Origin: a virus
Length of the DNA: 47,704 nucleotides
Strand: one strand, 5' to 3'
IMG/VR virus record: IMGVR_UViG_3300025010_000017
Coordinates: 1-47,704 of that record
Shown here piece after piece: positions 3,563 to 43,569 of the stretch. Numbering within the stretch: position 1 is the first letter of the stretch; every line of letters starts with the position of its first letter. Both the position numbers and the translations under genes were made by a program. The notes beneath the pieces were generated by a model. It had not been told where the DNA came from. It searched no databases and was given only the letters and a program-made list of their open reading frames with translations.

Positions 3563-4090
3563 TCAAAGTTTGGTATATTCAAAGTGCATCGGGTCAGGCC
3601 GTTTCCAGTTACCGCCCCAGTCGAACCCGTTGGTCTCGAAGCAGCCAACGAACCAATCGGGCAGACTGCCCTTCGTGCCCATGCCGTTGCGCCGAGGGTC
3701 TATGTCTATCGCCGCCCCGAACGCGTGTGTGGAAAGCGTGTGGCCGCCTCGTATCACGCGGTAGGAGTAGATGCCCCCGAACACGTCAAGGCCAAGCCAG
3801 CGAAGGTATACGAGTGTCTTCTTGTCGTAGAAGTCGGGTGACTGTGTGTAGCCGTATTTGCGCTTTATCTCAGCCCTTGCGATTGCATACACGTCTTCAA
3901 GAGCAAGGACAAGAGAATCCTCCATATCCTTATGTACTCTGCACACAGAGACGCGTCTGCCGTCCCATGACGCACGCATCCGATATGGCAGTTCTACATA
4001 CACGAGGTTGGCGTCCTCCCATCCCGGGTTAGCCTTGGCGAATTTGCCTCTTGGATCTCCGAAGCGTTTTATAAGCTCACTTTGGGTCAT
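3563..4090 (-). CDS. M15-family peptidase endolysin
   Basis: 175 aa. Predicted zinc peptidase of the M15 (VanY / L-alanyl-D-glutamate peptidase) family that cleaves peptidoglycan cross-links at lysis. The zinc motif SxHxxGxAxD reads STHAFGAAID (H122, D129) and the second half is DPMHFEY (H169). The start is ATG 4090, preceded by GGAGG five bases upstream, in preference to an in-frame GTG at 4102. It overlaps the end of the upstream gene by 4 bases. No signal peptide is visible, so release should depend on a holin; several small membrane proteins lie just upstream. It could instead be virion-associated, but the neighbours favour an endolysin. Confidence 0.85.
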   Translation of the reverse strand: MTQSELIKRFGDPRGKFAKANPGWEDANLVYVELPYRMRASWDGRRVSVCRVHKDMEDSLVLALEDVYAIARAEIKRKYGYTQSPDFYDKKTLVYLRWLGLDVFGGIYSYRVIRGGHTLSTHAFGAAIDIDPRRNGMGTKGSLPDWFVGCFETNGFDWGGNWKRPDPMHFEYTKL

Positions 4091-4509
4091 CTGTTCCTCC
4101 ACAACCGCTCGTATTCAGCGGCCTTGTCGGAAACCTCTTGCTGTATGGAGTTGCGTATCGCAATCCTCAAATCTCTGTTGCATGCGCCGTTAAACTTCTC
4201 GTTGTCTCTCATCAAGTAGCACTCGTCTACCCACAGGGTTGTTTCGTACTTTGCATCTTGGAATCCATGCTCTTTGACCAGCACGGCAATAACATCGTCC
4301 CATATTTCCGTAGAATAAGAACACGTGCGAAGACCACGAACGTCTTTTGCGGCTATGAATTTCTCTACGTTGTGGATAATCACCTTTGCCGATGCCTCAG
4401 CGAACATAGCCGTTAGTTGGTCGCGGGTAAACGTGTCCTCATGCAGAAGGATAGTGTATCTTTGCGCTTCCTCTTGATACTCGCTGCACTCCAAACGGTA
4501 TAAGTACAT
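4087..4509 (-). CDS. Hypothetical protein, lysis region
   Basis: 140 aa, acidic and predicted mostly helical, with no recognised domain or membrane segment. It begins MYLYRLECSEYQEEAQRY and ends AAEYERLWRNR. It overlaps the small membrane gene upstream (stop at 4509) and the endolysin downstream by 4 bases, so the three are probably translationally coupled. Its position between a membrane protein and the endolysin suggests a lysis-related or regulatory role, but nothing in the sequence shows it. Confidence 0.7.
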   Translation of the reverse strand: MYLYRLECSEYQEEAQRYTILLHEDTFTRDQLTAMFAEASAKVIIHNVEKFIAAKDVRGLRTCSYSTEIWDDVIAVLVKEHGFQDAKYETTLWVDECYLMRDNEKFNGACNRDLRIAIRNSIQQEVSDKAAEYERLWRNR

Positions 4510-7681: not shown

Positions 7682-9025
7682 TCAGCTTTTGATGCTGCCT
7701 GTTATTAGCTGTAGCCAGCTATTCCAACTCTGCATAAGTGCCGTGTATAGCGCACTGTTATTAGCGTATGTACTCCTCATCTTTCGGGCTTCTGCCTCTG
7801 CCCTGTCGAGGATAGATGAAGCCGCATAGCCTATCGGTATGGCCGATGGGTAGTCCGTGTCGTTCACCATGTCAGCGGCTATCCCGTATCCGTGGACTGT
7901 AAGCGTAGCCCCTGCCGCCGGTGTGGGATACACCCTGATGTATGAGCCTTGCAGCATGAGCCACTTGGTCGGCGTTGAGGCTGCCGTCTCGTTCCATGAC
8001 TGAAGCGAGTACCCAAGATCGCCCATCGTGGACTTCTTCAACACCGATGTACCGATGCTTGCTTCAAGCGGTTCGAATATGTCATCCGTGAAGTAGGTGT
8101 GCTGGTCAGAGAGCAGCGTCACGTCTGTGGTCTTCCTGTAGCACTTGGTCGCCATCTGCGTTTCCCGATATGCTATGTTCAGGCAGTAGTCTATGTCATC
8201 GTCTGAGTAGTTGCCCTGTGAGTCATAGTCGTTCAGCCTGCGTCTAAGTTGGTTCTGGAGGTCAAGGAAGCTCGGCCCTTGCCCGATTGTGCTTGCCGTC
8301 ATGGTCAGGATATACGGCGAGAGCGCAGTACCAAGCCCCGCAAGGCTGCCCGTCCCCGCGTCTCCTGCGACAAATGACACAGGCGAATCAAGGTGCGCGT
8401 CTGAGGTGTTCGCCCACATGTAATAGGTGTTGCCAGCGTCCAGGTAGACCCCGTTTGCGCCGTTGACATACCCATCGGTATCCGTGAGGTACAGCCCTGC
8501 CACAACCGCAGTAGGATCGTCGGTGTTGGTGAACCAGACTTTGACATGGTCAAGCGGCACGGTCGCCTCGTTCAGCACCTTGAAGAAGTACTGCGTAGCC
8601 CCCGGCCCTGTAATAGCCCCGTAGATGTTGTTGACGGTGTTGTTTATGGTGGTCACAGAGCCGTCCACTTGCTTCAGGTACTTAGCAACAGAGCCTTCAA
8701 TCTCATGGTCTGGCGCGGTTATCACATGGTCTAGGATATCGGCCGCGGTTATAACCGCTGGTGAGACGTACTCAACCGCCGGTATATCGTCTACGTCCGC
8801 TGTGCCTGCGGTCGTGAACATACAGCGGTAGTAGCCTGCCGCGTCCACGTTTGCGCCTGCCGACACAGCGGAGTACAGCCCGTCGCCCAGGTCACTGACC
8901 GCGCCGATGGTCAAGGCAGAACCGTCAGGCTTCTTTGCGGCTGCCGTGACTGTCAGCCCTGCCGCGCCTGAGCCTGAAGCCGTGAACATACCGAAGAATG
9001 TAATGGAATCTCCAATTTGTGGCAT
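7682..9025 (-). CDS. Tail protein: Ig-like N-terminus fused to a connector-like C-terminus
   Basis: 447 aa. Residues 1-95 are a small beta domain of the BppU/Ig-like kind (GDSITFFGMFTASGSGAAG to AAGYYRCMFTTAGTAD). A central beta segment follows. From about 250 there is a helical domain (FLDLQNQLRRRLNDYDSQGNYSDDDIDYCLNIAYRETQMATKCYR ending in an ASSILDRAEAEARKM helix) resembling head-tail adaptor proteins of the T7 gp11 class. It starts at 9025, two bases beyond the stop of the large glycosidase. A fused baseplate-connector role is inferred from domain order. Confidence 0.5.
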   Translation of the reverse strand: MPQIGDSITFFGMFTASGSGAAGLTVTAAAKKPDGSALTIGAVSDLGDGLYSAVSAGANVDAAGYYRCMFTTAGTADVDDIPAVEYVSPAVITAADILDHVITAPDHEIEGSVAKYLKQVDGSVTTINNTVNNIYGAITGPGATQYFFKVLNEATVPLDHVKVWFTNTDDPTAVVAGLYLTDTDGYVNGANGVYLDAGNTYYMWANTSDAHLDSPVSFVAGDAGTGSLAGLGTALSPYILTMTASTIGQGPSFLDLQNQLRRRLNDYDSQGNYSDDDIDYCLNIAYRETQMATKCYRKTTDVTLLSDQHTYFTDDIFEPLEASIGTSVLKKSTMGDLGYSLQSWNETAASTPTKWLMLQGSYIRVYPTPAAGATLTVHGYGIAADMVNDTDYPSAIPIGYAASSILDRAEAEARKMRSTYANNSALYTALMQSWNSWLQLITGSIKS

Positions 9026-9026
9026 C

Positions 9027-12000
9027 TTATATCCCCAATCTTCTGCGCGGCCCTGGTATCATCGAACCGAGCGCACTCGCAGACCACATCGGCCTGCCCG
9101 TTGTTCCTTCGTAGACCGTGATGCTGACGTAATAGACACGCTCGGTATAGGCAACCTGCGTCCACTGTGAAAGGTAGTGTGCCTGTATGTCTACTCCGAA
9201 GCCTGGGTCTTTTATATCGTCCACCGTCCAAGCCGCACCCCAAAGGTCATGGTCACCCCCGAAGCTTCTTGTCTCTACAGTCTGGGCCCATGTGTGCGCG
9301 GCGTCGGCCTTGTTATCTCCCGTCGGAGTGCCGGCCTTGAGCAGCCTTATGGTATGGTCATGCACCGTAGGTTGTGCCGGCGGGTTTGCTGTAGCCCAAC
9401 GAGCCTTTAGCGTGACCGATATGCCGCTTATCTCCGTTACCTCAACAGGAGGGTTAAAGCCGAAGTTCTGAAACCTCAGCACCGGCGTCACATAGTCCAG
9501 CACGTTGAACGCCTCGCCGTAGTAGGCATACTGGTCGTTGTCCGTGCCTGCATACTGCGGGTTCAACCATGCCTCATCACCAACGCTCGTCACATCGGAC
9601 AGCGGTGTCGTGACCCCGTTGGTATCGCTCCAGGGTGGCACTACCGGCTCAGGGTCGGGCACAGGGTCTTCTACGGGTGGGTCGACCACAGGAGGACCTA
9701 CAACCGGCGGGTCGACCACGGGCGGATCTACCACTGGTGGGTCGACAACCGGAGGCTCAACTGGCGGCTCTACGGGTGGGTCTACCGGTGGGTCAGGGTC
9801 TGGTATCGGGTCTTCCGGGTCTGGCGGGTCAGGTGGCGTTGTGGCGGTTGCTGTGACTATCACAGCGGCGTCTGTTGCGACCATCTCTGAGTCCAGCCGA
9901 AGCACCCCGTCCGTCACCCAGACCTGCTCCGCTGCAGATGCTATGCCAGTCCATGTGTTGTACCGGGTCACATCGTAGCAGCCGATAGCAAAGCCCTCTA
10001 TGGCAAGGTCTGTACTCTTTGCCGTTGGCGTCACGCCATCCCGCACCACGTTAGCCCAAGTCGCCTCAGAGTTGGAGAGCCAGAAGTAAGCCTCGCTCCC
10101 CTTCTTCACGCCGAGCAGCCGAATGTATGCGTTCGATGAAGTGCAGTCCTCTGCTCCGAAGTCTGGGATATTTGAGCAGAGCCTAACCGCTCCGTTTGGG
10201 TCATGGAAGGGCAGGTCAGCGCAGAACGCAGAAAGCCCGTCCCAGATGCCGTAGAGCAAGCGAGGGATGATGTAGTCCTTCGTCCACCAGTAGGCTGGCG
10301 TGTGCAAGCCCTTCGTCGCCATGAGCGTAGCCCAGAAGCCGTTGTGGGCGTGTATGCCTGTGCTGTCATGCCGTGACTTTGTGGTATCGTCGGGGTCTGC
10401 GTAGAGTGACAGGTCGCCGCCTGCTCCCATCAGTCCAAACTCACCGTGAATGTAGGGCTTCGGCAAGCCAAGCGTCCCTGCGGCATAGGTGGACTCTGAG
10501 GTGTGCGCCATGCAAGCAGCCCACTCTTGTTCGTCCTCTCCGAGCGTGTCTAACTCGAAACCGCTGTTGAATATGAGGTTTCTGCCGTCTGCCGCGTCTA
10601 TCCTGAAGTTGTCTATCCAGACCGAACCCGTTGTACCCGTGAGCTTGAAGGTGAGCAGCATATAGTAGCAGTTGGCGGGCGTGGTCAGGTTCAAGGTTTT
10701 GAGTGACCATGAGACGCTGCCGTTGGTCACCGTGTTATAGACCGAGCCTGAGCAGGCCGTGCCGTCACTCTTGTAATACTGATACTGCACCGTAAACTGA
10801 CCGTTGAAGCCGTAAGAGCGTATGCGGTAGGTGTTGGTGTACGCCGATGCCGCCTTGCAAGGCACCTCTATGCTCCATTGGCGTGTTGTGCCGTTGGGAG
10901 TGCACTTCATACACTTGGAGCCTGCATAGCAGTTGGCCTGCGTGGTCTCAAGCGAGTACCCGGAGGCGAAGTTGCCCCAGAACGGGACGCCTCTTGGAGT
11001 AGTGCGCTCCTCTGTGTTCAGGTAGTAATGCACCTGGTTCGCGTCCATGCCAGAGAGCGCGGCATAGCCCACATCGCCGGGTGAGTACCAGGTAGAGTTA
11101 GTTACAATCCTCCCTGTAGGGTCGCTTGCTGCCAGAGCCGCAGATAGCCGTGTTATCCATGCACCTCTGACTGCCGTATAAGTCGGGTCAAGCTCGTTAG
11201 AGAGTTCCCACGCAAAGAGCGAGTCATAGCAAGCCCACCTTGCGGCCATCGAGCGCAGGTGGTACTCCTGCTGTAGCAGGCTTTCCTCTGTTGAGAAGAA
11301 GTCTGCGTAATAATCGAGGTACATACCATCGACTTCGGGCATATAGAGCCTGTAGTCGAATACGGCAGGCTGAAGCGTGATGCCGTAGCCGCTTGCCACG
11401 GATAGCAGATGCTCAAACCGCCACATTCTGCCACGGTCAAGCTCTGTGGTGTTCCACGCCTCAAAGCCAGGACGGAACAGGTAATCGACATAGCCGAGGT
11501 CGGTGTATCCCGAGTCGCACTCCACAAGCGTTGCGTCATCTACCCACACGCTCCCGGCTGTGCTGGAGGCGTCGACCACAACGTTCCATGAGATCCATTC
11601 GGCCGACTTGGTCGCCGATACCGTCGATACCGTCGCTGTGACAGCCGTCCAATCGGCGTTGCCCTCTACCCCATCGGAATAGGCGGTTGTCTCTGAGCCG
11701 TCAGCCCACTTCAGCCTGAGTTTGAGCTTCGCTGTGCCGTTGAAGGTGGAGTTGGTCTTGATGTAGCAGGTCGCCTTGTAATAAGTGCTTGGCCTCACGC
11801 CTATAAAAGTCTGCTCGATTACCTTGCGTTCGGTAGAGCCGCTTGTGACGGTAGCCCTGAGCGACTGTGCCCCTGTCCGCTTGACGCTCGTGTCATAGGC
11901 CGTTGTGAATGCAGAGCCGCCCCAATCGGAGTAGTAACCCCGGTGGACGTCTTGAACGGAGGTGTTGACGATGCCACACCGTGAGAAGTTCATGCCGTGA

Positions 12001-12539
12001 GCGTACATCTCGTCAAGGAAGTCTAGTGCATCGTCGGTGTCGGTCGGGAGCATCGCCCCGATCGGCACATACGGATCGCCGTTAGCCCTGCTGAACCCAC
12101 CTGAGCCTGTGACAATCTGCCCCTTGTTGCTAGACGCAACGCAGGTAAACGTCACCGCGTCTGCCGTAACTGTGCCTGTCTGGTCTGTGAAGGAGACTAC
12201 CGCGGAGTGCGCTCCTGCCGTCTGAGGCATGTATCTGATATGCCAGTAGGGTACGTTCGTCGGGCAGAATCTATCATGGCCGGTGAAGCCTGTGCATTGG
12301 CCGAGGTATTCAAAGTCCGAGTCGTAGAACCCCGGCACTGTCACCGTAGAGGCGTCAGGGAGCGTTATAACAGCCTGGCAGACCACTCCTGCCTTTGAGA
12401 GCGCAGAGGAGGTCACGGCAGGCCGCCAGGGGTTGTAATCGGCAGGCGATATGCCGGACACAGCAAAGCCTAGCTCATATATGGAGTATTTGCCGGGAGT
12501 CGCCGTATTCGCTGTTATTGCCCCAATCGCAAGTGCCAT
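9027..12539 (-). CDS. Tail glycosidase (GH5-like) with carbohydrate-binding inserts; probable depolymerase
   Basis: 1170 aa. Residues 1-135 form a beta domain like those preceding putative cellulase barrels. A TIM-barrel glycosidase follows with the clan GH-A signatures: acid/base Glu449 in WELSNE and nucleophile Glu700 in IHGEFG. The barrel seems split by two jelly-roll carbohydrate-binding-like inserts at about 205-340 and 525-650, both ending in the usual VWVDDATL or VWIDNFRI strand. A Pro-rich stalk (901-975) and a C-terminal domain (980-1170) complete it. It probably degrades host surface polysaccharide during adsorption; the substrate is unknown. Most phage depolymerases are beta-helices, so a GH5-like one is unusual. 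Confidence 0.75.
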   Translation of the reverse strand: MALAIGAITANTATPGKYSIYELGFAVSGISPADYNPWRPAVTSSALSKAGVVCQAVITLPDASTVTVPGFYDSDFEYLGQCTGFTGHDRFCPTNVPYWHIRYMPQTAGAHSAVVSFTDQTGTVTADAVTFTCVASSNKGQIVTGSGGFSRANGDPYVPIGAMLPTDTDDALDFLDEMYAHGMNFSRCGIVNTSVQDVHRGYYSDWGGSAFTTAYDTSVKRTGAQSLRATVTSGSTERKVIEQTFIGVRPSTYYKATCYIKTNSTFNGTAKLKLRLKWADGSETTAYSDGVEGNADWTAVTATVSTVSATKSAEWISWNVVVDASSTAGSVWVDDATLVECDSGYTDLGYVDYLFRPGFEAWNTTELDRGRMWRFEHLLSVASGYGITLQPAVFDYRLYMPEVDGMYLDYYADFFSTEESLLQQEYHLRSMAARWACYDSLFAWELSNELDPTYTAVRGAWITRLSAALAASDPTGRIVTNSTWYSPGDVGYAALSGMDANQVHYYLNTEERTTPRGVPFWGNFASGYSLETTQANCYAGSKCMKCTPNGTTRQWSIEVPCKAASAYTNTYRIRSYGFNGQFTVQYQYYKSDGTACSGSVYNTVTNGSVSWSLKTLNLTTPANCYYMLLTFKLTGTTGSVWIDNFRIDAADGRNLIFNSGFELDTLGEDEQEWAACMAHTSESTYAAGTLGLPKPYIHGEFGLMGAGGDLSLYADPDDTTKSRHDSTGIHAHNGFWATLMATKGLHTPAYWWTKDYIIPRLLYGIWDGLSAFCADLPFHDPNGAVRLCSNIPDFGAEDCTSSNAYIRLLGVKKGSEAYFWLSNSEATWANVVRDGVTPTAKSTDLAIEGFAIGCYDVTRYNTWTGIASAAEQVWVTDGVLRLDSEMVATDAAVIVTATATTPPDPPDPEDPIPDPDPPVDPPVEPPVEPPVVDPPVVDPPVVDPPVVGPPVVDPPVEDPVPDPEPVVPPWSDTNGVTTPLSDVTSVGDEAWLNPQYAGTDNDQYAYYGEAFNVLDYVTPVLRFQNFGFNPPVEVTEISGISVTLKARWATANPPAQPTVHDHTIRLLKAGTPTGDNKADAAHTWAQTVETRSFGGDHDLWGAAWTVDDIKDPGFGVDIQAHYLSQWTQVAYTERVYYVSITVYEGTTGRPMWSASALGSMIPGPRRRLGI
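9620..9839 (-). repeat. Degenerate tandem repeats encoding a Pro-rich stalk
   Basis: Imperfect short repeats encoding PPVVDPPVVDPP-type sequence inside the glycosidase gene, with related units of 15 bases repeated many times. They separate the catalytic part from the C-terminal domain. Such repeats are prone to slippage, so stalk length may vary between relatives. Confidence 0.8.
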
Positions 12540-12885: not shown

Positions 12886-13527
12886 TTAGTAGCTGAACCT
12901 TTCGTAACGTCTGGTGTTCATCGCCCCACTGAGTGCCTGAAGCTCGTTTGACCACATGGCGGAGTACTTCTCCCACCTCATGCGCTCTATCGGCTTCTCA
13001 GGGTCAAACGGCAGTTCGGCAAGGATGTAGTAGGCGGGTGCTATCTGAAAATGGCTTGGGAAGTACGCCAATGGGTTTGTCGCCCCAACGCTGTCCGAGA
13101 AGTCTGCGGGTAACGCTCTGCCCCGTACTACAAGCAGGCCTGCGGTTGTGACCGTTGGGTTCGTGTCGAACACCAGCGCGTCACCTGTGGCTACGAAGTA
13201 GGTGGGCGTCCCTGTGGCCGTCCTCCAGCCGTCGATGTTCTCATCAAGCCAATCGAAGGTAGTGCGCTCTAAGAGAACCCCGTCCCATTCCACGGAGTCC
13301 ACGCCGAGGCAGTCGATGGGTAGTGACGCCCTGTTGGTCGTGATAGGGAATACGGTGGTGGAGTTCGTCCAGATAGTGCCTGAGAGCATATCCGTCCTGT
13401 CGGCCATGATGCCGAGTGCCTTGTTGCCGAGCATACGGACGGTAGAGGCGTTCGGCCTTGCGCCTTCTTTCTCCAAGACATCGGAGACAAACTCGATTAT
13501 GTTAGACCATGTGTATTGCGTGCTCAT
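12886..13527 (-). CDS. Head-tail connector (adaptor)-like protein
   Basis: 213 aa. It starts with a helical region (SNIIEFVSDVLEKEGARPNASTVRMLGNKALGIMADRTDML), then beta strands with DCLGVDSVEWDGVLLE. It ends in a helix pair (FDPEKPIERMRWEKYSAMWSNELQAL). This helix-strand-helix plan is that of podoviral adaptors such as T7 gp11. A ring of such subunits would bind the portal and carry the nozzle. It lies downstream of the coat gene and before the tail enzymes, as expected. A related helical domain is fused in the protein at 7682-9025. Confidence 0.6.
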   Translation of the reverse strand: MSTQYTWSNIIEFVSDVLEKEGARPNASTVRMLGNKALGIMADRTDMLSGTIWTNSTTVFPITTNRASLPIDCLGVDSVEWDGVLLERTTFDWLDENIDGWRTATGTPTYFVATGDALVFDTNPTVTTAGLLVVRGRALPADFSDSVGATNPLAYFPSHFQIAPAYYILAELPFDPEKPIERMRWEKYSAMWSNELQALSGAMNTRRYERFSY

Positions 13528-13967: not shown

Positions 13968-14043
13968 TGGAGCTTCCACGAGGACTCGAACCCCGAACAA
14001 GCTACTTACAAAGTAGCGGCTCTGCCAGTTGAGCTATAGAAGC
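13968..14043 (-). tRNA. tRNA-Thr (anticodon UGU), CCA encoded
   Basis: A full cloverleaf is readable on the minus strand. Acceptor GCTTCTA pairs with TGGAAGC (one G-T); D arm GCTC/GAGC; anticodon stem GCTAC/GTAGC with loop TTTGTAA giving anticodon TGT; T arm CGGGG/CCTCG with loop TTCGAGT. The 3' CCA is encoded at 13968-13970. It lies in the late operon and may help translate ACA codons or resist host tRNA cleavage. Confidence 0.93.
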
Positions 14044-37324: not shown

Positions 37325-40300
37325 TTACCGTCGTGTCGGCCTGGTCGGAGGCTTCGGGCGAGATGGTGGTCCCGTCCTGCCCTTTGGCTTTTTCCTTTTC
37401 TTCGGCCTGTCTGCGTAGGTGTTTACGCCAACGCCTCCCAGAGACAGCACACCCGCTGCCGCCGCCGCGCCCGTCCCCATGCTCTCGTAAGCCTCAAGGA
37501 TACTCTCCCAGACCATCGGCGCGGTATCTTCAAAGAGCCTTCGCATCGGCTTCTCTTTGTAAGCCTTCTTTATGTCTTCGCCTTTGAAGTCCTTGCCTGT
37601 CTTCAGCGTCCATATTAGGCCCGCAAGCGGAGAGAGCTTTGACCGCACGAACCGCGTACCCTGCATATCGTTGTCGTAGGAAGTCATGGGCTTGTACTTG
37701 CCGTCGATCTTCCTTGAGTTCATTAGGAACTGCATCAGGTTTCGTGTCAGGCTGCCGTTACCCGCTGTCAGGTCTATTCGCATATCGCCGTAGCGTGCCT
37801 GTCCGAACTGCGAGGATAGATAATCGGTCTCTACCTGCAACCCGGATAGTTTAGCCATCGCAAGCAGAGAGGCTGTCCATGCCGCCTCTGCCACAAGCGT
37901 CTCTGCCGCAACTCGCCGCACAAACGGGTCATTGGAAAGAATCGCAAGCGGGCCTTGCACCTTCCCTGCCAGCCTTCGCGGAGAGAAGATAGCCACGTTC
38001 AGGTCAGTCGCCGCCTGCTCAAACGAGCCGAGAGAGCCACGGTCTGAGAAGGCGTTGATAACATGACCAATCTTCTTCTCAAGCTGCACCGTGTCTATGC
38101 CTAACTTCTCCATCTGAGCAAGGCGTATCTCGAACGCGCCGAGTCTAAGGTTGTTCAAGTATGTGCTATAAGCCCTTGAACTGCCGCGTATCCCCCATAT
38201 CTTATCTACCGCACCGCCGACAAAGGTTTCTTCCCGCTGCGATGAGCCGACAGGCGCGTCAGGTTCGGTAAAGGCGATACCTGCGCGTTTTGCCCTCAAG
38301 TAAGCGGGGTTTGCCTTCAGCCGTTCGTGTTCGATGAGGTATTGCTTCTCGCTGACCAACGCCTTCATCTGCGGAACCCACGCCTTCAACCAGACAATCG
38401 GGTGTCTTGCGCCGAGCGCGAACCCCTGCCTGCCCGGTGCTGACACGTCCATACTTGCCTTTGCGGACTTGTAGCCGCCTGCAACCTCGAACAACACGCG
38501 CCTTGATACGTTCTCTACCGTCAGCGGCTTCGGCGCGGCAACAGACTCCTTGAGTTTGGTTCGCGCCTGTTCAAGCTCTGCCCTGAGACTGAGTGCTTCG
38601 GTATCATCCATGATGCTAGGCATACGCGGCTTCGGGCCTTGACCTCTGCCGAGCCGTTCGTTCGTCTCCTGGATTTCGTTGACCAACCGCTTCTTGATAG
38701 CCTCAAGGCGAGCCTCACCCGTCAGGTTGGTGTGTACCTCAGCGAACGTAGCCTCATCAATCCCCGGAATGTCTTCCTTCGCCTTTGCGTAGAGAGCCGC
38801 ATAAGATCGAACCCCACGCTCGATATGCCAGCCGACTATATCGACAGCCGCCGCCATAAGCTCAGGGTCTATGCCGACATTCGCCCGTGGGTTTGCGTAC
38901 CTGTCAGCCCATATCCTCTTTGCCGCCTCGTACTTCTCATCTGTGAACAGGGTATTTTTGACCGCAACACGCGGCTTTGGTGTGGCCTTCGTTCCGGGTC
39001 TGCTGGACTCCTTTGCCCTAAGCTCTCTTAACTGCTTGTCGAGTGCTTCTATCTCCTGAGCCAGCCCGTGATTCTTCGCCTCATACTCGCTGGACTTCTG
39101 CAAGGCGCGATCGTACTGCTCTTTGAGTGCCGTAAGTTCGGCCTTTTCTTCTGGTGTCAAATCGCGCACGGTTTTCCTGCCCGTATTCACGGATCTTCGC
39201 TTTTGAGCCAGCAAGCCCTCCATTGAGTAGTCTTCGCGCAGTATCACCTTACGGGCATACATACCCTGAGCGTTCTCTGTGCCTGAGTAACTGAGCGCGG
39301 CATCGTTGTCATCAAAGGCGCGTTCAGTTTTCTTTATTTGGGTGCTTATAGAGTCTGCCTTTGCCGAATCCCCTGCGTTCAGCGCATCGTCGGCCTGCCG
39401 CCTGAGTACAGTCAGTTCGTTGTTTAACTTCTGCCTGTTGTAAGCAAGCGCGGCCACTTCGTCACCTGTGAGCGGTCTTGGCTTGTCGATAATCTCGCTT
39501 GCCAGTGCGTTCGGGTTCACGGCGTTATCGTCCACCAGCCGCTTGCCGTTGTCCAGCAGTTCACCTACCGTCTGCGCTTCCTGTTTTGCAACAGGAGCAA
39601 GCCCACGGTCTGCACGGTTGGCGTTGATTCTCTCAATGCTTGCGCCGGTCTGTCCCTTCTCCATGACGGGTACAGTCTTAGTCTTCGGGGTAATCGGCTG
39701 ACTCTCCCGGTCTATCTCAGCCCACATCTTGGAGATATGCGGCTTCACGGAGTCCCAGGTTTCCTCGAATGACTCACGCATGGCCGCAATCCAGGCTTCA
39801 GCGTCACCGGCGAACTGCCCGTAGTAATGCCGTCCAACCGTCTTCACATCGGCCATGAACTGCTTCTGTGTCGTGTCGTCTGCGTCCTTCAGCGAGAACG
39901 AGCCTCGCTCAGACTTCGCCACACCCCGAACAGTCTGCTTGATTCGGGAGAGTGCCTCTGCCACATCATCTGGAAGCTCACCCTTCGGTGCAGTCGGCTT
40001 AGGCGTCTTTGGCAACTTGGGCTTTACGACCTTCGGCGCAACAGGTTTCTCTACAACCGGGGTTTCCGGCTTTGGCGCAACCACAGGCTCAGGTTTCACG
40101 GCAGGCGCAAGGTCTGGATAGTCTGCCAGCACTTCGGGAGGCACAGGTTTGCCTTCGGCGAGTGCGCTTTCGACTTGCGTTCTGTGCGACAATTCTGTGT
40201 CAGCCTGTTCGCTCAATGACTGTAGTCGTGCATCAATCTCTGCATGTCGTTGCTTAAGTTCCATCGGAACCTTGTTGGCGCCACGGTAGTTCTTCTTCAG

Positions 40301-41878
40301 TGCGTCTTCGATGCCAGTCCCAGACCATTCATGTGCTGCCCCGATTGTGCTTCTTCTCGTCTCGACATCGGCAAAGTTTGTCTTCTGCCATTTCGGTGCA
40401 ATATCAAGTATCTGTTTCTCTATTGCTTTCTTCTCGTTGTTCAACTCATATGTTTCATTGCGAATCGGGTGGCCGTCTGGAAGTCCCACGCCTTTCTGTT
40501 CGTAAGCAGCTTTACTCATCTCCCACGGCTCTTTAGCCACTTGCTCAGGCACAACCACAGTCTCAGGCTGAACAGTTCGGGATTTCCGAACAGTTGGCAC
40601 GGGTTCGGGCGTAGGCACTGGCTCAACCTTCGGCGTAGCAACCTGCTCTAGCTTGACTATCTCAGCCTTGACCTCTGGCGCAACATGGCCTTGTGCGGTC
40701 AACGCTTCGTCCAGGCTCTTGAGCTGCTTGAGTTGCGCTTCGGGAGCTATGCTCTTTGCCCCGCCAGCGGCCTTCTGCCCCGCCTTGCCGAGCCCTCCTG
40801 CAACGCCTTCCATGAGTCCACGCATACCAGCACCAACCGCCAGCGATGTAATATCCCGCTTTCGCTGTTCGGCAGGCGTGAGGTTTTCTCCGCTGGTCAA
40901 TACTCTGTCAAATGCCAGGTTGCCAAGTGCGGATTCACCTATCTTCGCCGCCTTGCCACCAACGCCAAGCGCCTTCGCCCCTGCGCCGATAGTAGAGTCA
41001 ACGACTCCAAGCGGTTTGGCTAGTGCGAAGTATGTACCCTGCTGGCCTGCTATCCTGCCGACCTTGCCCTCAGTAGTGCCGAGTGCTCGTTTCAGAGTCT
41101 TCGGCTGCCGTCTTTCTTCTACTGTAGCCAACCTCTCTGCCGCTTCTTCCGCGCCTTTGAAGTTGCCCTTTGAGGTGATAGCCTTGACAAGCCCTCCGGT
41201 TGTCTCATATATTCCGTGAGCAGTAGCGACAACAGCGTTCTCCACCCTCTCGCCAACGCTGGGCTTCTTCCTGAGCTTGCTTATATATCCATCAGGCGCA
41301 ACTGCGCTTATGGTAGAAGGCGGCCTTTTGGAAGGTGTCTGACTCCAATAAGACTTTGGCCTGGGCTTTGCCTTAGCCGGTTTTTCGGCCTTCTTGGAGG
41401 AATGGGAAGACACGGCCGCCGTTGGTGCTTCAGCCTGCATCTTCTTCAGATCCGCCTTGTCATACTTTTGCGGTCTGCCGTCCTTCTGTGAGCGCAGGCG
41501 GTTGACCTCTTTGTCATCGGCCTTGTCGGGGTCTGCTAGGTGGATATGGTTCACATAGATGTTCCTTTGGCCTTTGTACCGCACCCTTGGAACATATCCA
41601 AGCTCGGATAGCTTTGCCGCCGCCTTCTCCATGCTGCCGTACTTCGCCTTAGCCTCAGCCTCGGTTATGTCGTAGACCCCTGGCCCGTCATGGCTGCCGA
41701 AGTGGACGCTGCCCTTCGACTGAGCCGCCACTATCTTCATGCCGCCTATCTTGTCACCCTTGTTAGCGGGAGACGTGTCGATATAAGCCCACGCACCCTT
41801 GCCCTTTTTGCCTTGAGGTTTCGGTTGTGCGGTTGGTTTAGAGTCAGTTTCTATGTAATCCCATGCGCCCATACTCAT
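37325..41878 (-). CDS. Very large ejection (internal virion) protein
   Basis: 1517 aa from ATG 41878, overlapping the upstream stop as TAATG. Its N-terminal region has two DYI-type repeats (MGAWDYIETD and GAWAYIDTS) and HFGSHDGPGVYD...NIYVNHIHL, then Pro/Lys-rich linkers, long coiled coils (about 640-1000) and a helical C-terminal third with NAFSDRGSLGSFEQAATDL and amphipathic or membrane-active spans (LVAEAAWTASLLAMA), plus a basic Arg/Pro tail. This is the plan of the largest podoviral internal proteins, which enter the cell ahead of DNA. No enzyme motif recognised with confidence; it may include a peptidase domain near the HIHL motif. Confidence 0.65.
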   Translation of the reverse strand: MSMGAWDYIETDSKPTAQPKPQGKKGKGAWAYIDTSPANKGDKIGGMKIVAAQSKGSVHFGSHDGPGVYDITEAEAKAKYGSMEKAAAKLSELGYVPRVRYKGQRNIYVNHIHLADPDKADDKEVNRLRSQKDGRPQKYDKADLKKMQAEAPTAAVSSHSSKKAEKPAKAKPRPKSYWSQTPSKRPPSTISAVAPDGYISKLRKKPSVGERVENAVVATAHGIYETTGGLVKAITSKGNFKGAEEAAERLATVEERRQPKTLKRALGTTEGKVGRIAGQQGTYFALAKPLGVVDSTIGAGAKALGVGGKAAKIGESALGNLAFDRVLTSGENLTPAEQRKRDITSLAVGAGMRGLMEGVAGGLGKAGQKAAGGAKSIAPEAQLKQLKSLDEALTAQGHVAPEVKAEIVKLEQVATPKVEPVPTPEPVPTVRKSRTVQPETVVVPEQVAKEPWEMSKAAYEQKGVGLPDGHPIRNETYELNNEKKAIEKQILDIAPKWQKTNFADVETRRSTIGAAHEWSGTGIEDALKKNYRGANKVPMELKQRHAEIDARLQSLSEQADTELSHRTQVESALAEGKPVPPEVLADYPDLAPAVKPEPVVAPKPETPVVEKPVAPKVVKPKLPKTPKPTAPKGELPDDVAEALSRIKQTVRGVAKSERGSFSLKDADDTTQKQFMADVKTVGRHYYGQFAGDAEAWIAAMRESFEETWDSVKPHISKMWAEIDRESQPITPKTKTVPVMEKGQTGASIERINANRADRGLAPVAKQEAQTVGELLDNGKRLVDDNAVNPNALASEIIDKPRPLTGDEVAALAYNRQKLNNELTVLRRQADDALNAGDSAKADSISTQIKKTERAFDDNDAALSYSGTENAQGMYARKVILREDYSMEGLLAQKRRSVNTGRKTVRDLTPEEKAELTALKEQYDRALQKSSEYEAKNHGLAQEIEALDKQLRELRAKESSRPGTKATPKPRVAVKNTLFTDEKYEAAKRIWADRYANPRANVGIDPELMAAAVDIVGWHIERGVRSYAALYAKAKEDIPGIDEATFAEVHTNLTGEARLEAIKKRLVNEIQETNERLGRGQGPKPRMPSIMDDTEALSLRAELEQARTKLKESVAAPKPLTVENVSRRVLFEVAGGYKSAKASMDVSAPGRQGFALGARHPIVWLKAWVPQMKALVSEKQYLIEHERLKANPAYLRAKRAGIAFTEPDAPVGSSQREETFVGGAVDKIWGIRGSSRAYSTYLNNLRLGAFEIRLAQMEKLGIDTVQLEKKIGHVINAFSDRGSLGSFEQAATDLNVAIFSPRRLAGKVQGPLAILSNDPFVRRVAAETLVAEAAWTASLLAMAKLSGLQVETDYLSSQFGQARYGDMRIDLTAGNGSLTRNLMQFLMNSRKIDGKYKPMTSYDNDMQGTRFVRSKLSPLAGLIWTLKTGKDFKGEDIKKAYKEKPMRRLFEDTAPMVWESILEAYESMGTGAAAAAGVLSLGGVGVNTYADRPKKRKKPKGRTGPPSRPKPPTRPTRR

Positions 41879-43569
41879 TACCCCTTTTGGTGAACGTCGT
41901 CCCATATCTTCCTGAGTTCGGTTCCCTTGCCGTCTTTGCCCCGCCACTTTTTTGGAGAACCTGCAAGGAAGTGTTCCCATGTCTCGTTTTCACCATTGGC
42001 TATCGCTATGCGTATACCCCTGGCTATTATGTGCTGAGTCTCCGGCCTAAACTCCGTCTTCAACCACTTGCCGCTTGGCGTCTTGGTTGTTCCTGTGACT
42101 GAGCCTGAGCCTGAACCCATTATGTCTAGTGCTTTGTTCTGCGTGTTGGTCAAGACAAACTGCTCATCTTTGAGTGCCTGAATCATCTCATCGTCAAACG
42201 GTTCAAGCTTGCCGTCCACGTCATAGCCGCCGTATGCAAGAAGCTCCGATATCTCTGTCAGCCGCTTGGACGTCTGCCGTACCTGCGACATCATGGACGC
42301 GCTTGCCTGCGGTGTTATCTGCTTGCCCTTGCTCTCTGCCGTGGCCTCTTGTATCTTGAGGTGCGCTGCCCAAGCGTTAGCCCTAAACCTGCTTGTCTTC
42401 GCGTTCTCTCCCGCTGTATTCGCCATGCTGGTTTGATAACGAACGGTAGAGTCTGCAAGCATACGCTTGATTCCCTCGCCCGCCTTGTTAGCCCTCTCTG
42501 TCTCAGTGATCCGTCTAGCACCCTGGTTGATTGTTGCTACCTTCTGCCTCCCGGGTGAAAGCGCAAAGGCGTCTTCGGGACTCATGTTCATGTACTGGGC
42601 GTGGAGCGCAGGTTGACTGTCAGCCGGGTACAGGCTGTTCACCGCAGCGAACCGTTCAGCGTCTCCACTCTTTGGGTTCGCCAAGACTGCTATCATGGCC
42701 GCATAACTGCGCTCACCCTCTTTTTGGAGTGCTATCTGCGCTTGTCTCTGCTGCCTCATGTTTTCGGCTGTATACGCTATCTGGGCGCGTGCCGCCATCT
42801 GGTCGTCTGTCTCTCCTGGCTCTCTTGTTATGCCGAGCCTCGCAAAAGTCGCGCCCTTCCACTTGTCCACCGCATCGGGATATACCCCGCCGTATGTTGA
42901 GGCAGTCGAAAAGGCGTTCTGCGGATCTGAGTCTATGGCCTTCAGGAACGTATTCGCAACCGTCGCTTCCTTCGTCGGAGAATAGTCCGGCATGAGTATC
43001 GACGCTTCTAGTTCTTCGTCGCTCATCTTGCGCGGTTCAGTAACCGGCGCGTTCGGGTCTGCCGGCTTTCCTGGTTCGCCGTTCCTGCTTGCGTTATATG
43101 CCTCTTGTTTGGTCTGATGCTCTAGCTTCTTTGCCTCTCTTATCTCCAGGGGGATAAAGGATTCCTTAAGTTCGGTCTCCCAGTTCGGAATACGCCTCAC
43201 AACGGAATACAACTGCATGGGTGTGATGTTCGGGTTCAGTCGGCGTTGTTCGGCTATGATGTTCTCAACGGTCGGCACGCCAAGGTTCTGCACATTCACA
43301 TTCTGGATGCCTTCTTCGGCGTACAATTTCTTGTACTCGTTCTCCATAAGTGCGCGTTCAGTTTTAGGCGTGGTTAGCCATGTCTGCCCGTCCTGCAACT
43401 GCTTTTCAAGATAGCCTATCTTGTATCGCCGTTCCTCCCGCTGCTTCTGCTCGTCGTACTCCTGCTTCCTGGCGTATGCCTCAGCGACTCGCCCGAACTC
43501 TTCGTCAAGCCGCTGCTGCCTGTTTAGCCTTGTGTCTCTTGCCTGCCTGAACGCATTTGACATGCTCAT
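41878..43569 (-). CDS. Ejection (internal virion) protein, coiled-coil
   Basis: 563 aa. N-terminal coiled coil (AFRQARDTRLNRQQRLDEEFGRVAEAYARKQEYDEQKQREERRY), Gln/Ala-rich middle, C-terminal WKTEFRPETQH-type helices. ATG 43569 is used; a longer frame to 43599 would overlap the upstream gene. It lies between a gp14-like and the largest ejection protein, so three ejection proteins are encoded consecutively as in T7 (gp14-15-16). Confidence 0.65.
   Translation of the reverse strand: MSMSNAFRQARDTRLNRQQRLDEEFGRVAEAYARKQEYDEQKQREERRYKIGYLEKQLQDGQTWLTTPKTERALMENEYKKLYAEEGIQNVNVQNLGVPTVENIIAEQRRLNPNITPMQLYSVVRRIPNWETELKESFIPLEIREAKKLEHQTKQEAYNASRNGEPGKPADPNAPVTEPRKMSDEELEASILMPDYSPTKEATVANTFLKAIDSDPQNAFSTASTYGGVYPDAVDKWKGATFARLGITREPGETDDQMAARAQIAYTAENMRQQRQAQIALQKEGERSYAAMIAVLANPKSGDAERFAAVNSLYPADSQPALHAQYMNMSPEDAFALSPGRQKVATINQGARRITETERANKAGEGIKRMLADSTVRYQTSMANTAGENAKTSRFRANAWAAHLKIQEATAESKGKQITPQASASMMSQVRQTSKRLTEISELLAYGGYDVDGKLEPFDDEMIQALKDEQFVLTNTQNKALDIMGSGSGSVTGTTKTPSGKWLKTEFRPETQHIIARGIRIAIANGENETWEHFLAGSPKKWRGKDGKGTELRKIWDDVHQKG

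Follow-up and report, generated by a model that had tools for sequence, protein, structure and literature searches.

The window considered here, the whole stretch of DNA analyzed, has a length of 47,704 bases and corresponds to the whole virus record. Its ORF at positions 9027–12539 of the minus strand encodes a protein of 1170 aa, and this locus raises the question of which enzyme the protein represents, how it is built and from where a phage could have obtained it. Among the neighbors of the gene are a P22-type portal and a terminase, and two genes with SU10-type adaptor domains flank it; an integrase is also encoded in the window, away from the enzyme gene. The following features were delineated (residue numbers are those of the 1170 aa protein).

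9027–12539, minus strand: whole gene; DUF5060, GH5-type barrel, beta-sandwich, Pro-rich stalk and phage module, 1170 aa
12120–12539, minus strand: residues 1–140, DUF5060-type beta-sandwich without a signal peptide at its start (Pfam PF16586, E 1e-4, under the gathering score; profile match 51–188; hydropathy)
11967–12119, minus strand: residues 141–191, barrel strands beta1 and beta2 with R187 (profile and model)
11454–11966, minus strand: residues 192–362, insert 1, jelly-roll-type, in the beta2-alpha2 loop (profile gap, paralogy with insert 2, cellular counterparts)
11016–11453, minus strand: residues 363–508, barrel alpha2 to beta6 (profile and model)
11193–11195, minus strand: E449, putative acid/base (aligned with ManDH5 E303; Glu in 79/79 relatives covering the position)
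10542–11015, minus strand: residues 509–666, insert 2, CBM4/CBM16-like jelly-roll, in the beta6-alpha6 loop (own model; structure and profile matches)
10200–10541, minus strand: residues 667–780, barrel alpha6 to alpha8 (profile and model)
10440–10442, minus strand: E700, putative nucleophile (Glu in 80/80 relatives)
9840–10199, minus strand: residues 781–900, C-terminal beta-sandwich of the GH family (profile match 794–898, E 1.7e-15)
9636–9839, minus strand: residues 901–968, Pro-rich stalk (composition, 31 Pro of 68)
9030–9635, minus strand: residues 969–1170, module common to many phage proteins (39 viral loci); may attach the enzyme to the virion or serve as an additional binding module
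12886–13527, minus strand: flanking SU10-type head-tail adaptor (PF24175, E 2.4e-11)
7682–9025, minus strand: second flanking gene product, also carrying an SU10-type adaptor domain (PF24175, E 2.1e-13)
3563–4102: nearby endolysin (phrog_17001)

According to the phmmer comparison with the PDB, the protein is similar to ManDH5 (9gmj, E 2e-15) over three collinear segments, 67–167, 403–508 and 693–781. A profile constructed from 26 cellular relatives aligned with it in four collinear pieces (51–188, 408–510, 693–780 and 794–898). These cover, respectively, DUF5060 through beta2, the stretch ending with beta6, the beta7–alpha8 part and the C-terminal beta-sandwich. The AlphaFold2 model of residues 1–900 (57 sequences, mean pLDDT 69.9, pTM 0.70, insert 1 poorly modelled) shows the barrel elements in order; beta2 and beta6 are each followed by a beta-rich insert. 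ManDH5 is the closest solved structure to this model (Z 34.9, 2.2 Å over 514 residues), followed by a GH140 apiosidase (Z 27.3) and, lower, by other GH5 mannanases (Z about 22). The earlier note had proposed from the sequence a GH5-like clan GH-A barrel and a link to DUF5060. Superposition of the model on the GH5 mannanase ManDH5, together with alignment of the DUF5060 region both with ManDH5 and with the profile of cellular relatives, confirms that the phage protein is a GH5-like clan GH-A barrel of the DUF5060-linked ManDH5 type. The Pfam Cellulase model PF00150 did not match the phage protein, either intact or with the inserts removed; four of the 9 relatives scanned matched it at E ≤ 0.1 and the ManDH5-like relative L013 did not, so this model does not define the ManDH5-type lineage. 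A beta-helical depolymerase was considered as well and rejected: the model contains no such fold, and its barrel aligns with GH5 structures.

The motifs WELSNE (E449) and HGEFG (E700), named in the earlier note as catalytic, were found as described there, 251 residues apart. The predicted structure contains a TIM barrel in which both residues align with the catalytic pair of ManDH5; E449 coincides with E303, which was mutated by the depositors (E303Q, according to the PDB titles). The clan GH-A pattern is present, with Asn-Glu after beta4 (E449) and Glu after beta7 (E700). Enzymes of this clan use a retaining mechanism, in which E449 would protonate the leaving group and E700 would attack the sugar. 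In 80 cellular relatives, which were selected through sequence motifs of the catalytic region and thus form a non-random sample, the nucleophile Glu is kept in 80/80 and the acid/base Glu in all 79 that reach its position. The two Glu of these relatives are separated by 79–101 residues, compared with 251 in the phage protein, and their largest barrel insertion is 22 residues, compared with 143 and 166. The long distance between E449 and E700 is explained by a jelly-roll module occupying the beta6-alpha6 loop, and the supposition that one insert interrupts the barrel between the catalytic residues and another one precedes them holds, the latter being located in the beta2-alpha2 loop.

GH5-type enzymes carry core residues in the form of Arg on beta2, His/Tyr on beta6 and Trp on beta8, and in the phage protein these positions are filled by R187, H504, Y506 and W751; W444, E445, N448, E449 and E700 are also retained. 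Comparison with 55 relatives showed replacements at near-invariant positions (N163M, Y430S, W753T and D754K) and loss of the Trp of the beta1 loop and of the Trp and Pro of the beta3 loop. Since the core residues are kept and near-invariant cleft residues are lost, catalysis is likely retained and specificity is likely altered. Judged from the sequence, this loss leaves the substrate, and even the efficiency, of the putative enzyme uncertain.

As for the inserts, in the AlphaFold2 strand order insert 1 lies between beta2 (185–189) and alpha2 (366–385), and insert 2 lies between beta6 (501–507) and alpha6 (670–686). The beta2 and beta6 loops of an eight-stranded barrel are on its catalytic face, opposite each other; by barrel topology, the two inserts are expected to flank the cleft from opposite sides. 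Folded alone (pLDDT 71), insert 2 showed structural similarity with CBM16 (Z 12.4), CBM4-2 (Z 11.7) and C-terminal domains of phage tailspikes (8iqe, Z 13.2), the latter being among its closest structures. The profile of both inserts matched 4mgq, a CBM construct listed as GH10, with E 8e-4. The jelly-roll fold is thus assigned to insert 2 by a medium-confidence model and to insert 1 by paralogy alone. BLASTP comparison of insert 1 with insert 2 gave 26.9 bits, a score reached in 0/500 shuffles, and hhalign comparison of their family profiles gave a probability of 97.9 (E 3.5e-13; probability of the reversed control, 0.1). On these sequence comparisons, the two inserts are paralogues. It is proposed that these sister jelly-rolls on the beta2 and beta6 loops could hold or orient a polymer over the cleft.

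The CBM family models did not match the inserts in native order. With its last strand moved to the front, insert 2 reached 20.4 bits against CBM_4_9 (cut-off 25.9); since the family cut-off is not reached, the inserts are named CBM-like and not CBM4. The inserts end with the similar strand motifs YLFRPGFE and NLIFNSGFE, of a type with which CenC/CBM4_9 domains start. Similar terminal motifs occur in the cellular relatives with two inserts described below, at the end of insert 1 in 9/9 and at the end of insert 2 in the 8/8 that reach it. The terminal motif and the match of rearranged insert 2 with CBM_4_9 speak for a permutation, and against it are the failure of insert 1 to match any CBM model after the same rearrangement and the low model confidence on that strand. 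The motif suggests that the inserts are permuted jelly-rolls; it may equally be the remnant of a second tandem module.

The tailspike match of insert 2 and the replaced cleft residues would also fit a barrel that catalyses little and serves for binding or as a scaffold, with the jelly-rolls as receptor-binding domains. This seems improbable: the catalytic Glu pair is kept together with the neighboring Arg, Asn, His, Tyr and Trp, and purifying selection acts on every segment of the gene (dN/dS 0.035–0.23, estimated against a single close viral relative). An active hydrolase is the preferred reading.

With the phage protein as a query at 1e-11, matches were obtained in 23 of the 291 genomes in the G001 phylum group (G001 being the L042 genome, Armatimonadetes) and in 6 of the 392 in the G002 phylum group (G002 being the L035 genome, Planctomycetales). 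Among the 21 loci examined from these two groups, nine contained both inserts, four insert 1 only, and eight neither; all nine double-insert loci (L173–L179, L181 and L184, of which L173 ends at a contig edge within insert 2) belong to the Armatimonadota group, and each group contributed two loci with insert 1 only. The L030 genome (Verrucomicrobia) holds a protein with insert 1 only. L129 used as a query at E ≤ 1e-20 matched 45 of the 387 genomes of the phylum group of L030; 30 loci examined from it comprised two with insert 1 only and 28 with neither insert. In total, six examined cellular proteins carry insert 1 only. No match at 1e-11 came from the phylum groups to which G007 (68 genomes), G003 (138) and G004 (7) belong; since the relatives known in these three genomes themselves score weaker than this cut-off, little can be concluded from this about relatives lacking the inserts. 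The earlier note had considered the architecture novel; the build is indeed unusual, but both inserts are present in the same loops in nine Armatimonadota-group proteins. That note had not recognized that the inserts are paralogous, that the loops carrying them (beta2 and beta6) lie topologically opposite each other, or that cellular kin are encoded in exopolysaccharide (EPS) clusters.

A quick phylogenetic tree was constructed from 48 rows and restricted to columns occupied in 60% or more of them, which left the inserts out. The two phage copies grouped with L173 (SH-aLRT 100). A split with SH-aLRT 97 set 28 insert-free rows apart from the insert-bearing ones, among which three insert-free rows were nested. 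The tree did not resolve how the two double-insert groups join, so insert 2 may have arisen once or more than once. In a first tree, without the insert-bearing relatives, the position of the phage was unsettled, and their addition settled it. The phage copy and L173 differ by about 2 changes per column, a distance too large for a donor to be named.

The flanks were readable for eight of the nine double-insert loci (one contig was too short), and all eight are located in exopolysaccharide clusters. A Wzy_C homologue (Wzy/ligase) was found in 8/8 of these clusters, a homologue of the GT2 adjoining the gene in L188 in 7/8 and a homologue of the exosortase EpsH in 5/8; EpsH, DUF3485, Wzy_C, GT families and SLBB were confirmed by Pfam in L188. 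Compared with the nine cellular regions, 41 other ORFs of the window had no homologue there, indicating no sign of a prophage there. All nine double-insert proteins start with a signal-peptide-like hydrophobic leader (maximal mean hydropathy of 2.08–2.81 over 15 residues), and the N-terminus of the phage protein has a corresponding maximum of 1.07 and no signal peptide. A signal peptide could be dispensable for the phage copy because it would be packed into virions in the cytoplasm.

This genomic setting also bears on the substrate. ManDH5 (9gmj, 9gpa, 9gpc, 9gpe and 9gpg), known here from PDB titles, is a GH5 beta-D-mannanase of Dictyoglomus thermophilum. Its DUF5060, barrel, C-terminal beta-sandwich and catalytic Glu all align with those of the phage protein; unlike the latter, it is cellular, has neither inserts nor a stalk, and differs in the cleft loops. 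A mannanase directed at environmental or plant mannan and not at the host coat would agree with ManDH5 being the best structural match and with the plain GH5 mannanases lower down. However, given the different cleft loops and the location of insert-bearing cellular kin in EPS-making clusters with no visible mannan-use genes, we regard it as the least probable of the readings considered. The expectation of the earlier note is upheld insofar as a polysaccharide is the likely target.

The C-terminal end of the protein relates it to phages. The proposed Pro-rich stalk was recovered at residues 901–968, and the module that follows is present at 39 viral loci, including the contig of L001, the close viral relative, which has 94% identity over residues 1–895 and whose enzyme gene directly follows an adaptor gene. 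Among the 38 other module loci and L006, 11/39 are short ORFs, no longer than 220 aa, with little else, and the rest have the module within larger proteins. In UOF77207 of the phage MW202473, the module is the N-terminal part, and the C-terminal part matches the tail protein phrog_394. Attachment of the enzyme to the virion by the terminal module is plausible on this sequence evidence; the stalk and the last module could anchor the enzyme to the neck or tail of the phage or supply an extra binding site. The phage enzyme combines a neighborhood of virion genes with the absence of a signal peptide. The gene position and the missing signal peptide make the suggested tail depolymerase plausible as well, but its location in the virion is what we infer.

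An enzyme outside the virion, made late, freed at lysis and clearing slime around neighboring cells for the progeny, would lack a signal peptide equally well; an endolysin gene is nearby, and the virion anchor is only putative. It appears unlikely in view of the gene position between two adaptor-domain genes and of the recurrence of the last module in phage proteins, once fused to a tail/adaptor protein.

Among viral contigs, searches with the whole protein, the catalytic part and the inserts, which were pattern-based and may miss distant copies, revealed one other carrier, and a family-wide profile confirmed no further one. Annotated phage records contained no carrier of the enzyme part (one phage matched, in the last module only), residues 1–900 gave only weak matches there at E 0.1–4, mostly in insert 2, and annotated plasmid records gave no match. 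The phage portal had no match in 291 Armatimonadota-group and 284 Planctomycetota-group genomes; such an empty result alone shows nothing, and any host assignment is therefore tentative.

Phage GH5 enzymes and GH barrels split by CBMs are each already known. The gp095 protein of Erwinia phage S6 is a podovirus GH5 enzyme active on model cellulose (PMC9544554); in the available portion of that source it has other N-terminal domains, its GH5 is described without inserts, and DUF5060 is not mentioned. GH10 Xyn10C-like xylanases (Pm25) contain CBM4 modules inserted in the GH barrel (PMC7848910). They resemble the phage protein in having a GH-A barrel split by CBM4-type modules, the insert profile matching 4mgq, and differ from it in being non-phage GH10 enzymes with tandem CBMs in the single beta3-alpha3 loop. 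WceF of Pantoea stewartii, an EPS-operon hydrolase, has been linked to phage depolymerases (PMC7949094); it differs in having a beta-helix tailspike fold, and there a cellular enzyme resembles a phage one. In the open-licence PMC literature no DUF5060-linked phage enzyme of this kind was found, DUF5060 appearing there in an unrelated context, and the enzyme terms searched are absent from the review PMC6116005. Closest to the phage protein are the double-insert proteins of the Armatimonadota group, which share its insert loops, catalytic residues and domain order. They differ in having a signal peptide and in being encoded in EPS clusters and not among phage tail genes; the eight complete ones end with another C-terminal domain (Ig-like by reading) instead of the stalk and phage module. 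The enzyme class of the phage protein is known and its build is unusual, and a path can be traced from secreted EPS-cluster hydrolases to a phage.

Given the computed fold, catalytic pair, insert positions and paralogy, double-insert kinship, EPS neighborhoods and absent signal peptide, this DUF5060-linked GH5 (ManDH5-type) protein rather probably acts as a polysaccharide depolymerase on the virion and descends from a secreted hydrolase like those encoded in Armatimonadota EPS clusters; its activity, substrate and host are proposed on the same footing. A bacterial enzyme may in this way serve a phage in passing the bacterial coat. More tentatively, the phage could have acquired the hydrolase from an EPS cluster of its own host, a member of the Armatimonadota, leaving the export signal behind; it would then have added the stalk and the virion module, and would use the enzyme for opening the polymer that the host enzyme trims. 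The jelly-roll would then have been duplicated into the opposite, half-barrel-equivalent loops (beta2-alpha2 and beta6-alpha6) as a clamp over the cleft, its modules possibly being circularly permuted CBM4-type ones.

These results tie a phage depolymerase to bacterial hydrolases in the exopolysaccharide clusters of a poorly studied phylum. The link with EPS clusters provides a concrete, testable guess at the substrate and host of a phage known from metagenomic data, and if the modules do clamp the polymer, a TIM barrel would here have been turned in a distinct way into an enzyme that is processive or specific for long chains.

L001, a viral contig with the same enzyme gene, shares pieces with the window at 80–96% DNA identity up to approximately 14.6 kb of the window, and beyond this point the two have almost nothing in common. 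Judging from nucleotide sequence comparison, their relationship is mosaic.

The C-terminal module of the enzyme (window 9030-9635, minus strand) is widespread among phages; no match to it was found in Pfam or PHROG. The window contains two adaptor-domain genes within a single phage, and in one of them (7682-9025, minus strand) about 250 residues of other sequence are located N-terminal to the adaptor-type domain. One tRNA-Thr (tgt) gene (13968-14043, minus strand) lies within the virion gene block. Part of a 1551 aa protein (37325-41980, minus strand) matches DarB-like antirestriction proteins (phrog_10089, E 2.5e-11).

Among the cellular relatives, a Coatesbacteria bin (L020:4786-8667) encodes a GlcNAc 2-epimerase-type domain fused to a DUF5060-GH protein. 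In the constructed tree, the insert-free proteins of three cellular loci (L139, L140, and L141) were nested inside the group carrying insert 1 only; their sequences may have lost this jelly-roll-type module.
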